Below, in pieces: positions 21,380-63,690 of a DNA stretch of 64,000 nucleotides (within the stretch, counting starts at the first letter, position 1; the number at the start of each line of letters is the position of its first letter). The stretch comes from Haladaptatus sp. R4 (lineage in GTDB: Archaea > Halobacteriota > Halobacteria > Halobacteriales > Haladaptataceae). The stretch lies in the NCBI RefSeq assembly GCF_001625445.1, contig NZ_LWHG01000028.1, positions 124,001 through 188,000 of the forward strand. Reading direction: 5' to 3'. The notes under the pieces are model-generated. The model saw only the letters and a program-made list of their open reading frames with translations. It was not told the origin of the DNA and did not search any database. Position numbers and translations under genes: made by a program.

Positions 21380-21721
21380 ATGGGGTCTGTGGAACTGCTG
21401 CGGGTGCTCGGTAACAAATACAACGCCGAAATACTCGACGCAACACACGAACCGAAATCCGCACAGGAGCTAAGCGAGGAGCTTGGTATCCCGATAGCGA
21501 CCAGCTATCGCCGAATAGAAGAACTCACCGAGGCGAACCTGCTCGAACTGATCGGGCGCGAGTTCTCGAACGAAGGCCGCCGAACGAAAGTGTATCGGCG
21601 TGACATCGATAGCGTGTCGATCTCGTTTCAGAGTGATGGTATCGACGTGTCCGTCGGTGACCGTCCCGAAGTCGAGAACGCATTGGTAGACGTGTGGCGC
21701 GACCTGAAGGAGCAACGGTAA
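21380..21721 (+). CDS. Winged-helix (ArsR/HTH-20-like) transcriptional regulator
   Basis: 113 aa. Residues 1-65 form a winged helix: VELLRVLGNKYNAEILDATHEPKSAQELSEELGIPIATSYRRIEELTEANLLEL. The remainder is short with no ligand-binding domain. Starts ATGGGGTCTGTG just after an AT-rich stretch (TTTTTATGCTCTTGTTATC at 21349-21367) that probably contains its TATA box. Its position between cheW and the archaellins suggests a motility regulator, but that is inference. Confidence 0.8.
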   Translation: MGSVELLRVLGNKYNAEILDATHEPKSAQELSEELGIPIATSYRRIEELTEANLLELIGREFSNEGRRTKVYRRDIDSVSISFQSDGIDVSVGDRPEVENALVDVWRDLKEQR

Positions 21722-22097
21722 CCGTACCGCCAATAAGCACGTGTTCTTCGGCGTCATACCTGCCATCTCGGAGTTCTCGATGGTTACGTTCGCCGTCAGT
21801 GGTATTCCCGGGCCGAACGATGAACGCTGTTCTAGCTCTTCATCGGCTTTCCCTTCGTCGTTCTTACGGCCATCGCGATGACCGTCAGTGCGTTCATGTA
21901 CGGGTTCGAAGGTGATCTCCTCTCCTCAGATTAGACGAAAACTTGCCATTGATGAATATATGACTGCTTAGGCAGTGTTAATTATATACGGATAAGCGAC
22001 CAGAACGAATTTTCTCCGTTGATGGCCTCATTTTGGATTATATTGCCATTATTGGCCGTCTAAGAACGATATCACACCTGATAATTGGATACGTAGA

Positions 22098-22104
22098 TTT
22101 AATA
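22098..22104 (+). promoter_or_regulatory. TATA box of the archaellin operon
   Basis: GATTTAATAC with TTTAATA at 22098-22104. A start site about 27 nt downstream (about 22128) would place the GTCCGAACCG hairpin at the very 5' end of the mRNA. Confidence 0.6.
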
Positions 22105-22130
22105 CAATCCTTTGATTCGTTCCGCATAGA

Positions 22131-22160
22131 GTCCGAACCGTGATACATTTCGGTTCGGAC
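22131..22160 (+). promoter_or_regulatory. 5'-leader hairpin before the archaellin genes
   Basis: Perfect 10-bp inverted repeat GTCCGAACCG (22131-22140) / CGGTTCGGAC (22151-22160) with a 10-nt loop. It is followed by ATGAAGTGA, a two-codon start-stop, before the archaellin ATG at 22176. Confidence 0.75.
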
Positions 22161-22175
22161 ATGAAGTGAGAAATC

Positions 22176-22799
22176 ATGAAAGACGCAATTCAACAGCGCC
22201 TCAATAACAGAGGTCAGGTCGGTATCGGAACGCTCATCGTGTTCATCGCGATGGTGCTGGTCGCGGCAATCGCGGCCGGTGTGCTCATCAACACGGCGGG
22301 TTTCCTCCAGTCGAAGTCCCAGCAGACGGGCCAAGACAGCACGGCACAGGTCTCCAACCGCGTCGAAGTCGTCTCCGGCTTCGGTAACGTGACGTCGAGT
22401 GAACAGGTTGACTACATCAACCTGACCGTCATGCGCGGGTCGGGTTCCGATGACATCAACCTCTCGACGGCCACCATCGAGTGGATCGGTCCGAACAAGG
22501 CAAAGACGCTCGTGGCAGGAAACCTGTCCGCGACGAATGCGAAATCCGCAGGCATGACGCCCGGTGACAGCCACTACTTCAACGTCTCGGACATAAAGGA
22601 CGAGGACGACTCCGCACCGGTCCTCAACAGTCAGGACGACCGCTTCACGATCTCGATGAACGCGACGGCAATCGGCGCGAAAGCGCTCGGCGAGGGCCAG
22701 ACGGTCGACCTCAAACTCACTACGCAGTACGGTGCAGTCACGCTCTACCGCGCGAACATCCCACAGTCGCTCTCCCAGGAGAGCGCGGTGACGGTCTAA
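22176..22799 (+). CDS. arlA1: Archaellin (major archaellum filament protein) 1
   Basis: 207 aa. Class III (type IV pilin-like) signal: basic [13 protein letters not shown] followed by [31 protein letters not shown]; cleavage expected after Gly13 by the prepilin peptidase. The C-terminal globular domain carries several N-x-S/T sequons (NVT, NLT, NLS, NVS, NAT) available for N-glycosylation. The C-terminus [23 protein letters not shown] is the haloarchaeal archaellin signature. Followed 5 nt later by a near-identical paralogue. Confidence 0.95.
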
Positions 22800-22804
22800 T
22801 AAAA

Positions 22805-23434
22805 ATGAAAGACGCAATTCAACAGCGCCTCAATAACAGAGGTCAGGTCGGTATCGGAACGCTCATCGTGTTCATCGCAATGGTGCTGGTCGCGGCGATC
22901 GCGGCCGGTGTGCTCATCAACACGGCGGGCTTCCTCCAGTCGAAATCCGAGCAGACGGGCCAAGACAGCACGGCACAGGTCTCCAACCGCGTTCAGGTCG
23001 TCTCCGGCTTCGGTAACGTGACGACGCTGGACGGCACCGGTACTTACGATCCGAACGGAAAGGAGTACGTCGATACGGTCAATTTGACGGTCATGCGCGG
23101 ATCGGGGTCGGACGACATCAATCTCTCCACGGCCACCATCGAGTGGATCGGCCCGAACAAGGCAGTGACGCTCGTGAACGGCAGCAACGCGAACGGTACC
23201 CAATTCACCGTCTCGGCGATCAAGGACGGCGACAAATCGGTTCCCGTTCTCAACAGCCAGGACGACCGCTTCACGATCTCCCTGAACGCGTCGGGAATCG
23301 CTGGTAGCAACGTCTACGGACTCTCCGAGGGTCAGACGGCCGAACTTCGACTCACCACGCAGTACGGTGCAGTCACGCTCTACCGTGTGAACGTCCCGCA
23401 ATCGCTCTCCCAGGAGAGCGCGGTGACGGTCTAA
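22805..23434 (+). CDS. arlA2: Archaellin 2
   Basis: 209 aa. The first 50 residues match archaellin 1 except one position, and the DNA of the first about 180 bp is nearly identical; the middle differs ([17 protein letters not shown] insertion and NGSNANGTQ) and the C-terminus is again conserved. Same class III signal and sequons. No separate promoter (5-nt gap), so co-transcribed. A T-rich run (CTTTTT at 23450-23455) shortly after the stop is a plausible terminator. Confidence 0.95.
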
Positions 23435-24849: not shown

Positions 24850-26801
24850 ATGGTTACGGACTCGCTCATCCGGGTTTTAAAGGACGTTCTCCGGGATACG
24901 GATACCTCTGGAGAGTCCCAAAAACGCATCAAGTTCGATGGAGGGGCACAAACTAGTAAGGTTACTGTCTCAAGGAATGACAATATTTCGACAAATTCTG
25001 TAGCGGACGTATACAGTGGGACGGGTGCCAGCGACGAACTGCAACAGGCACAAGCCCACCATCTGAACGGACTGTTTTCGAACAGTGAGGCGACTATTGC
25101 GGAAGCGCCTCGTCTCGGACGTGAACACGCGGAGGCGGGTGTTCCGGGGGCGACGTTCGCCGCGACGTACGGTGCCGCGTTCGAAACGATGGTAGAAGCG
25201 ACCTTCGACCGGCTCGATCACCGACTCGGCGACGGAAACGAAGCGGTTTCCGACGAACTCACACGAGCGGAGTCCGAACTCATAGACGCGATATGGGCAG
25301 GCGTTTCCGGCATGCAATCCGGACTGGAGGCACACGAGTCCCTGCTCCCGGCCGAGGAAGACGAGGATGAGGACGAACTCAACGTCGACGACGAAGCGCT
25401 TCTCGACGGGATCGGTCTTCCGGTGTTCATGCTCAACGCGGACCACGAAGTCGTGGCGTGGAACAGTTCCCTCGAAGAACTGACCGGCACGCCGCGCCAG
25501 GAAGCCATCGGGTCGACACGGGCGAGTACCGCGTTCTATCCCGACGGCCGCCGGAGTAAGACGCTCGCGGACAAAATCCTCGACGCTCCGGAGAACACAC
25601 ATCTCGAATTCGATGTCGACCGGGACGCCGACGATAATCAACTCTACCGCGACGAGAGTCAGATGATGGCACAGGGCGGAGAAGAGCGGCAGATCGCCTT
25701 CGCAGCCAAACCGCTCTATCAGGACGGAAAACTGATCGCTGTGGTTGAGACTGTGCACGACCGTACCGAGGACGTCCGTCGCCACGATAGCGTGAGGGGA
25801 TTGGTCGAGGAACTCGGGAGCACCCTGTCCGCCATGCGAGATGGTGACCTCTCGGCTCGCGCCAACTACACCGACGAGTACGACGTGATCGACGATCGGC
25901 TCATCTCGGTGGTCGATCAAGTGAACGACATGGGTGAGCGGTTCGAACTGCTCACGACCGAGTGGACGAGCAGGCGTCCGAACTCGCCGAATCGGTCGAT
26001 AAAGCCTCGGGTTCAGCTCACACCATCGAGGAGCGTGTGGAGGAACAGACGTCACTCCTTACCATCGTCGCCAACGAGATGGAGAATTTCAGCGCGAGCA
26101 TGCAAGAGGTCGCCGCGAGCTCCGACCAAGTGGCTTCCGCCGCGGAGCAGGCGCAAGCGGCGGCCGACACAGGTCTCGATTCCAGCGAGGGTGCGCGCGA
26201 GGCGACGGACGACGTCATCGAGATGAGCGACGACCTCGTGGAGACCGTCACCGAACTCGAATCACAGATGGCCGAGATCGAAGGCGTCATCGAGGTAATC
26301 GCCGAAGTAGCGGACCAGACGAACCTCCTCGCACTGAACGCCAACATCGAGGCTGCCCGTGCCGGAGACGCCGGGAGCGGGTTCGAAGTCGTCGCGGACG
26401 AGGTCAAGGAACTGGCGAATCAGACGCGCGAACACACCGAGGAAATCGCCGGTCGGATCGAGGATATCCAGTCCCAAGCCAACGAGACCGTCGTCGCCGT
26501 CGAGGAATCGAACCAACAGGTTCGGTACGCGGGCGAGGAAATCGAGGACGCCCTCATCGCCCTCGAAGAGATCGCGGACGCCGTGGACGAGGCCGCGGTC
26601 GGCGTGACCGAAGTCGCGGAGGCGAACGATGAACAGGCCGCTAACGTCGAACAAGTGATGGCGACCGTCGAGGACGTGCGCGATACGACCGAACAGGTCG
26701 AAGCCGCCACCGAGGACATCGTCGGGGCCAGCATGGAACAGACGACAGCGATCAGCGAACTCGCGGACCGCGTCGGCGACCTCACTGCGGGATCGAACTA
26801 A
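24850..26801 (+). CDS. Soluble methyl-accepting transducer with PAS domain, frameshifted
   Basis: No transmembrane segments, so a cytosolic chemoreceptor. Residues about 60-170 are helical and resemble the end of a globin-coupled/HemAT-like sensor ([24 protein letters not shown]). A PAS domain follows at about 190-315, then a HAMP-like stretch ([24 protein letters not shown]). The signalling domain has the tip [31 protein letters not shown]. One G is missing near 25960-25963: the first frame degenerates after ELLTTE, and [16 protein letters not shown] continues in another. Corrected length about 650 aa. TATA box AGTTTTATATTCGG about 35 nt upstream. Confidence 0.88.
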
Positions 26802-26828: not shown

Positions 26829-27695
26829 ATGAGTGAAGGCGAATACAAGATTACAGATACGCGAGGAAAGTTCCTCCAAGCGATGAAAGGCGGCCAAAAG
26901 CTGAAGGACGCCGCTTGGACGAGCGGACGCATTCTGCTCTCCAATCGACGGCTCGTTCTCGCCGGAAACGGGGGGAAACGATCGATTCCGCTTTCGAAAG
27001 TCAGCGGCATGAGCGGCCGGTACGACGTGAACCAGTCGGTCGCCAGTGTGTCCGACTACATCAGCTTGGAGTTCGACGGCGACGTGTTTCTCGTCTCTTC
27101 ACAGCTCGAAATCGACGAGTTCGAGGCGAAACTGTACGGCGCGATGTTGAACCAGTCGATGATCCTCGTCAAGCACCCGGCGGTCAAAGGGGGCGTGGTG
27201 CAGAACACGGACTGGGAGCGTGCACGGGTAAAAATCGAAGTCGGCGAGGTCGGAATCGCGGTGGCCAGCGGCATCTTCGTCCAACTCGAACTCGACGATA
27301 TCGGGCAGGTCGATACCGCAAAGCGAACCGTCGAAGGACAGACCAGAACCGTCCTCGAAGTCGAACATTCGGAGGGAAGCACGAGCGTTCAGACGTACAT
27401 CTCCGGGCAGTCACGTCGCTGTTCGCTCCTCGGATCGCTCTTCCAGAAGGGCGAACAACAGAGCAAATCGGGAGCCGAGCTATCGGAGACCGAAAAAGAA
27501 GTTCTGATGGCGCTGTACACCGGCGTCTCATCGTTCGAGATTCCCGATTTCCTCGGCATGGACGTGGACAAAGTCGAGGAAATCTTCGAGCGACTCATCG
27601 AACTCGAAGTACTGGACGAGGTCAGAAAGCGCCGTGAAGTAAGCTTGAAGACACGCGGGCGGAACATTGCCAGCGAGTCCATCAGCGAGAAATAA
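26829..27695 (+). CDS. cheF1: Archaeal chemotaxis adaptor CheF (DUF439), paralogue 1
   Basis: 288 aa. CheF bridges CheY to the archaellum motor and is unique to archaea. The N-terminal two-thirds is beta-rich, with RGKFLQAMKGGQKLKDAAWTSGRILLSNRRLVLAGNGGKRSIPLSKVSGMSGRYD. The C-terminal 80 residues form a winged helix (SETEKEVLMALYTGVSSFEIPDFLGMDVDKVEEIFERLIELEVLDE). It follows the transducer gene by 27 nt, so probably the same transcript as the HEAT protein or the transducer. Confidence 0.9.
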   Translation: MSEGEYKITDTRGKFLQAMKGGQKLKDAAWTSGRILLSNRRLVLAGNGGKRSIPLSKVSGMSGRYDVNQSVASVSDYISLEFDGDVFLVSSQLEIDEFEAKLYGAMLNQSMILVKHPAVKGGVVQNTDWERARVKIEVGEVGIAVASGIFVQLELDDIGQVDTAKRTVEGQTRTVLEVEHSEGSTSVQTYISGQSRRCSLLGSLFQKGEQQSKSGAELSETEKEVLMALYTGVSSFEIPDFLGMDVDKVEEIFERLIELEVLDEVRKRREVSLKTRGRNIASESISEK

Positions 27696-28339: not shown

Positions 28340-29209
28340 TCACGTGTTCACTTTCTCGATACGGTCGCTGACGATCATCTTCGCCGGGGGGGTCAGCGAG
28401 AGGCCGTCGTTGGCCGGGTTCACCAGCCCTTTCTTCTCGATTTCGGTGAGCACCATCGATGCGCTTCCGGCGTCGATGCCGAGCGCGCCAGCGAGGTTGC
28501 CGCTGTTCGCGCCGGAGTAGATGGCGACGAGGGCTTCCATCTCCTGTTCGGTAACGTCGATCCGCTCCGCTTGTTGGGAGATCTCGGCGTATTCGAGACG
28601 CAGATATCGTCCGAGCAGGTTGAGTTTGCGGTCGGCGGCGACGACGAATTCCGAGGTGACTGTCTGCCCGTTGTCGGCGTGGCGGATCGCGACGACGGTT
28701 CGTGTGGTTCCGCCCACGTCGCGGTCCTGTTTCTGGAAGTAACTCACGCCCGAGAGGTCGACCGCGAACGGGTCGGGGATTCCGATAAATTCTACCGTTC
28801 CGGACTGGATTCGAAGCTTTCCGGTCTCGAACCGCTGGTCGGTGACGCGCCCACCGACGCGTGCCGGGTGTTTCACCGTGACGGGCGTGCCGCTCAGGAT
28901 GGCCTTGAAAAGGAAGACCTTGAACTTCCCGACGTTGTCGTTTTTGGCTTCGATGACGGCCGTGTGGCGACCATCGTCCGCTTCGTATGCGACGGTGACG
29001 GTATCCTGAAAGAACCCTTCGAGGTCGGACGGGACGTGACCGACAGAGATGTCGAAGATCGAACGTAACGGTATCGTCGTCTTCGATCCGCTCTCGGCCA
29101 ACACGAGTCGTTTCTGGCTGAGGACAATTCGTCCACGAACCGGTTCCAGCGACTCCCGCGTGTCGAGGCTGAATCTTGCGACGAAATCGGCGATAACTGT
29201 TTCAGACAT
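28340..29209 (-). CDS. cheF2: Archaeal chemotaxis adaptor CheF (DUF439), paralogue 2
   Basis: 289 aa, same architecture as CheF1: RGRIVLSQKRLVLAESGSKTTIPLRSIFDISVGHVP at the N-terminus and a C-terminal winged helix (VTEQEMEALVAIYSGANSGNLAGALGIDAGSASMVLTEIEKKGLVNP). Encoded downstream of arlJ (62-nt gap) on the same strand, so it probably belongs to the archaellum operon, while cheF1 is transcribed from the opposite side. Confidence 0.9.
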   Translation of the reverse strand: MSETVIADFVARFSLDTRESLEPVRGRIVLSQKRLVLAESGSKTTIPLRSIFDISVGHVPSDLEGFFQDTVTVAYEADDGRHTAVIEAKNDNVGKFKVFLFKAILSGTPVTVKHPARVGGRVTDQRFETGKLRIQSGTVEFIGIPDPFAVDLSGVSYFQKQDRDVGGTTRTVVAIRHADNGQTVTSEFVVAADRKLNLLGRYLRLEYAEISQQAERIDVTEQEMEALVAIYSGANSGNLAGALGIDAGSASMVLTEIEKKGLVNPANDGLSLTPPAKMIVSDRIEKVNT

Positions 29210-63575: not shown

Positions 63576-63632
63576 CGGTGGGAACCCGATTCGAACAACG
63601 TCCGAGAACCTGTGCAGTGCGCAGGTTCTCGG
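63576..63632 (-). pseudogene. Possible tRNA-Ser 3'-end fragment with hairpin
   Basis: On the minus strand an 11-bp stem (CCGAGAACCTG/CAGGTTCTCGG) is followed by TTCGAATC and then TTCCCACCG, the last 9 nt being identical to the end of tRNA-Ser at 63691. It may be an old integration scar or tRNA remnant. T-stem pairing is lost. Confidence 0.35.
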
Positions 63633-63690
63633 TCTAATTCAAAATCCCATTCGTCGTACTCAACGCTCACGGATTTGTTCGCGTTGAGAA

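Follow-up and report, generated by a model that had tools for sequence, protein, structure and literature searches.

Stem-loops of the ompA type, at the 5′ ends of transcripts, are stabilizers of mRNA in bacteria. The archaellin leader of Haladaptatus sp. R4 resembles this type in that the mRNA of a very abundant surface protein has a stem-loop a few nucleotides from its (predicted) 5′ end, with the ribosome site downstream of the hairpin. It differs in being archaeal, with no RNase E system implied, and in having a sequence that changes from clade to clade; stabilization would here be a proposed role. A second parallel is the flagellin 5′ untranslated region (UTR) controlled by FlbT in Caulobacter and Brucella, where the available text likewise places post-transcriptional control in the 5′ UTR of a filament-protein mRNA (PMC4347634), although archaella are unrelated to flagella. 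The nearest haloarchaeal leaders are the gvp 5′ UTRs, which modulate translation of gas-vesicle genes; in these, translation increases when three of the 5′ UTRs are deleted, and the accessible part of the report describes no covarying 5′-terminal hairpin (PMC8241225).

According to the accessible part of a Haloferax study, 72 % of transcripts are leaderless, highly expressed genes are typically leaderless, and control by structured leaders is 'not typical in haloarchaea' (PMC4983044). The initial annotation, in calling this leader unusual, was therefore apt. Searches of the open-access literature listed no description of such an element, judged by title and start of abstract, subscription papers being mostly outside this scope.

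A predicted 5′-terminal hairpin before the archaellin gene

The window (the whole 64,000 nt stretch of DNA analysed) contains a TATA box, TTTAATA, at 22098–22104 of the forward strand, exactly where the initial annotation had placed it. The perfect 10 bp inverted repeat that it reported from 22131 is likewise confirmed, with arms GTCCGAACCG (22131–22140) and CGGTTCGGAC (22151–22160) around a 10 nt loop (22141–22150), forming a predicted 5′-terminal RNA hairpin on the forward strand at 22131–22160. The first base of the TATA box is 33 nt before the stem, as in 19 of 19 family leaders, and the stem is thus placed a few nucleotides from the predicted 5′ end. The predicted transcription start region, TAGA (22127–22130, forward strand), is based on a distance of +29 from the TATA box and on a positional peak over archaellin leaders, and would leave about 1–4 unpaired nucleotides ahead of the stem.

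The RNA at 22126–22185 folds at −19.6 kcal/mol (z = −3.84), and none of 200 shuffled sequences folded as well. The window has a single copy of the exact repeat and, in all, eight perfect repeats (arms of at least 10, loops of 3–20), where 12 shuffles gave 2.4 on average. By itself the inverted repeat is weak evidence, being only moderately unusual, and the significance of the hairpin comes from its conservation in relatives, not from the single sequence. The excess of such repeats is what might be expected were this a chance or GC-driven repeat without function; that reading is extremely unlikely, being contradicted by the covariation, half-swap and positional results described below. At 63603–63635, the short-looped CGAGAACCTG..CAGGTTCTCG forms another perfect repeat. 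In Rfam 15 the leader had no match at E-values up to 5, there being one unrelated chance hit upstream, and it thus matches no described family of riboswitch or RNA thermometer.

The hairpin is followed by archaellin 1 (22176–22799, forward strand; ATG at 22176, 207 aa, Pfam PF01917) and a tandem copy, archaellin 2 (22805–23434, forward strand; 209 aa), which has no leader hairpin of this kind. Upstream of the leader is a gene for a winged-helix–turn–helix (HTH) protein (HTH_20; 21380–21721, forward strand), the order at the locus being cheW, winged HTH, leader, archaellin(s) and HEAT protein. This winged-HTH gene was upstream of the leader in all 21 leader loci tested and was absent at all three tested archaellin loci without the hairpin leader.

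Conservation and compensatory change in the Haladaptatus family

In 23 of the 28 genomes of the family, the hairpin element immediately precedes the start of the orthologous archaellin. A covariance model of the family element, R1, has matches in 24 of the 28, 23 of them genuine when judged by context, and when 392 genomes of the order were searched the true element was confined to the Haladaptatus family; a single universal hairpin sequence is therefore rejected. The weak R1 matches L070 and L071, and that at L067 in genome G004, are due to chance, judged by context, and at L069 a true hairpin was matched on its antisense strand. In the five family genomes without the leader, the best protein matches belong to other classes of archaellin or are distant proteins resembling pilins. 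In one Haladaptatus archaellin class (L004, L010, L011, L015 and L016), the leader lacks a hairpin of this kind. The element is present twice in G010, on two contigs. In G007 (L064, 1425–1700) there is a natural deletion, in which the promoter, the hairpin, and about 14 codons remain and the archaellin body has been lost.

Letter-by-letter reading of 22 family leaders, six of them from Haladaptatus, showed that each has TA and two more bases followed by GTCCG, and that the hairpin ends in CGGAC. The spacing from GTCCG to CGGAC is 20 nt in Haladaptatus, 19 nt in one sister genus, and 21–22 nt in the other. Across all 21 distinct rows of a model-based alignment, the stem's outer part, GTCCG/CGGAC (5 bp), is invariant; as these five pairs never vary, they are uninformative for or against structure. 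The inner helix has two-sided changes at five of seven pairs. Its covariation score was 0.201, compared to 0.113 when shuffled (reached by 0 of 500 shuffles) and 0.007–0.117 in slid registers, with a second computation giving similar results, and 14 cells were changed on both sides, compared to 4.8 when shuffled (0 of 500). Measures based on the counts of pairs and of types did not go beyond the shuffles, being reached by 69 and 58 of 500, respectively.

Because the alignment leans to the model, an alignment-free half-swap test was added, in which 5′ halves were folded with the 3′ halves of other species over 5000 permutations. The 17 natural hairpins had a mean of −13.99 kcal/mol and the swapped ones −10.35 kcal/mol, a loss of about 3.6, and no permutation was as stable (0 of 5000). 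The result was the same with one hairpin for each inner-stem type (n=11; 0 of 5000), which controls for relatedness only in part; the inner part alone gave 1 of 5000 and Haladaptatus alone (n=6) 92 of 5000. By this comparison the RNA fold is shown to be under selection in the Haladaptatus family, as judged from compensatory change. Since the two sides of the hairpin have changed together in relatives, it is the folded RNA itself that seems to matter. The earlier proposal that the leader opens with a stem-loop is thus supported, by compensatory change and by the fixed distance from the TATA box, for a start that is predicted rather than mapped.

Hairpins on archaellin leaders of other haloarchaea

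In total, 104 archaellin leaders were examined and thinned to 54, keeping six tandem second cistrons apart and leaving out 12 loci without a recognized archaellin start. Controls were 278 genes, with starts taken from a crude ORF caller and z-scores calculated on 80 of them. Transcription starts were set at TATA +29, an offset suggested by the window's own family. The z-score of the best hairpin had a mean of −1.23 in archaellin leaders, 31 % of which were below −2, compared to −0.04 and 1 % in the 80 controls (p = 6e-7). The difference in raw folding energy was modest (p = 0.011), and there was none in the perfect-stem score between archaellin leaders and controls (p = 0.10). The six tandem second cistrons fold equally well (mean −11.6), because this is coding DNA.

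Among leaders with a recognizable TATA box and a predicted length of at least 20 nt, a hairpin is present at the predicted 5′ end in 23 of 38, compared to 11 of 50 controls (Fisher p = 2.5e-4). TATA-bearing archaellin leaders show a hairpin peak at offset 29 (27 out of 47), other offsets giving 7–18 of 45–47, and the control genes have no peak at offset 29; the excess over controls is confined to the neighbourhood of this offset. If no TATA threshold is applied, the archaellin leaders are only weakly enriched (29 of 54, compared to 110 of 278 controls; p = 0.038). Those passing at offset 29 include 16 of 20 leaders from outside the window's family and 7 of 18 from inside it. Counted by genus, for predicted starts and with the TATA and leader-length filters, a hairpin at the 5′ start occurs in 16 of 18 genera and 8 of 9 families.

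These hairpins do not share a sequence. Genus g17 has unrelated hairpins at the same position, GGTTCGCC..GGCAGAACC and GGCTCGCC..GGTAGAGCC, the first stem of which has undergone compensatory change. In genus g7 (n=44), the 29 nt hairpin element is 95 % identical, compared to 69 % for the TATA block and 61 % for the spacer; the upstream element, with the TATA block and spacer, has 60–69 % identity. A G-to-C change in the g7 hairpin pairs with the former bulge, shifting the bulge. A model built from this genus, R2, has one match in each of 31 g7 genomes, all 31 ending at the archaellin start, plus two weak matches, and both R1 and R2 are shown to be specific to archaellin. It is tentatively proposed, at slightly below an even chance, that haloarchaea generally put a 5′-terminal hairpin on their major archaellin mRNAs, with position and fold retained and the sequence replaced from clade to clade. 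If true, archaellum control would have a general layer after transcription, in organisms believed to be sparing with structured leaders.

Mechanism and alternative explanations

The exonuclease aRNase J acts 5′ to 3′. In the mechanism proposed here, the repeat acts in cis as an RNA stem-loop that makes up the first ~30 nt of the archaellin mRNA, transcription would start a few nucleotides ahead of the stem, and the hairpin would shield the 5′ end of an abundant message from 5′-end-dependent decay, for example by aRNase J. The stretch after it, either a Shine–Dalgarno (SD)-like sequence or a CA-rich tail, would be the landing site of the ribosome. Because clades differ in hairpin sequence yet agree in its position and fold, the likeliest role is a structural one at the 5′ end, and stabilization of archaellin mRNA by the 5′-terminal stem-loop is the leading mechanism, with a function deduced from these comparisons that stands about an even chance of being correct. 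In broader terms, the hairpin probably protects or controls the abundant message for archaellin, the main protein of the swimming filament. A hairpin that covaries and keeps a fixed position, on a presumably very abundant mRNA, suggests 5′-end protection or leader-based control in haloarchaea, and archaellin leaders are short natural parts with which either may be tested in genetically tractable species.

A trans-acting factor, either an RNA-binding protein or a small RNA, may instead bind the hairpin and set archaellin translation or decay, with a logic like that of FlbT. The invariance within clades, of the outer 5 bp in all distinct rows and of the g7 hairpin despite the divergence of its promoter, would suit an added sequence-specific partner better than a purely structural shield. 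That post-transcriptional control is possible in Haloferax is indicated by the available part of a study in which loss of KsgA lowers ArlA1 protein but not its mRNA (PMC7897474). Against this, hairpin sequences are wholly different between clades, making a single conserved sequence-reading factor unlikely, and regulation by such a factor is considered a possible but doubtful explanation. The initial annotation had also raised an operator. In such a case, a regulator acting as a dimer, perhaps the HTH protein encoded next door, would bind the repeat as DNA over the transcription start. The arms are indeed symmetric and invariant and an HTH gene adjoins every leader locus tested; however, the fixed spacing of half-sites expected of an operator is absent, spacings of 19, 20, 21 or 22 nt rotating the half-sites, and the inner arms covary. 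The variable spacing and the compensated inner stem favour an RNA hairpin, and the operator is accordingly disfavoured and judged unlikely. The motif of the arms occurs 289 times in the genome, so that no regulon can be read from a pattern search. A better site is the separate palindrome TATCA-N4-TGATA (22070–22083, forward strand), upstream of the TATA box and kept in the Haladaptatus family, which is likelier than the hairpin to be bound by a regulator and is a candidate site for an activator, possibly the HTH protein encoded nearby. Some 25 bp separate it from the centre of the TATA box downstream, and it is conserved in the 13 aligned family promoters; in other haloarchaea, too, archaellin promoters are preceded by similar elements with GATAA.

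It is also conceivable that the hairpin, or a micro-ORF after it, gates ribosome access to the archaellin start as a translational switch. The two-codon micro-ORF of the initial annotation exists in the sequence as ATGAAGTGA at 22161–22169 (within ATGAAGTGAG, 22161–22170, forward strand), ahead of the archaellin ATG; either ATGAAGTGA or ATGATGTGA is present in all six Haladaptatus leaders read but in none of the 16 other family leaders. With the reading frame in 6 of 22 leaders, all of one genus, it is rejected as a conserved element. The aligned bases are mostly AGGACGTGA in the other family leaders, a sister genus having the SD-like AGGACGTGAG in most of its leaders, and AGGACGTGA is a near match to the SD complement of the 16S 3′ end, GGATCACCTCCT, of the genome analysed here. 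Predicted pairing with this 16S end is −4.9 kcal/mol in Haladaptatus; in the larger sister genus it is −9.3 kcal/mol for four of the five leaders. Being found only in Haladaptatus and aligned with an SD-like stretch, the micro-ORF is probably incidental and may more simply be accounted for as a degenerate SD sequence, the use of SD sequences in haloarchaea being itself disputed in the accessible text of PMC8241225.

A switch is favoured by the SD-like stretch adjoining the hairpin and by the micro-ORF in Haladaptatus, but the SD/start stretch lies outside the hairpin, with a mean unpaired probability of 0.49–0.71 in the five computable leaders, about half or more. No strong SD-hiding stem was found, only weak pairings of 4–5 bp near the start in three Haladaptatus leaders. 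An alternative pairing of GTCC with the GGAC of the SD, seen in the sister genus, was dropped because it is absent in Haladaptatus. No alternative pairing proved to be conserved, and the tested g7 leader is without an SD. A translational switch is thus very unlikely.

Other features were observed at this locus. The tandem archaellins start nearly identically (22176–22300 and 22805–22930) and diverge later, as after gene conversion. A methyl-accepting transducer (24850–26801) is split by an apparent frameshift near 25960 into two overlapping ORFs in different frames, which could be an assembly error. Two CheF-arch paralogues (PF04283), at 26829–27695 and 28340–29209, are on opposite strands within one archaellum and chemotaxis region.
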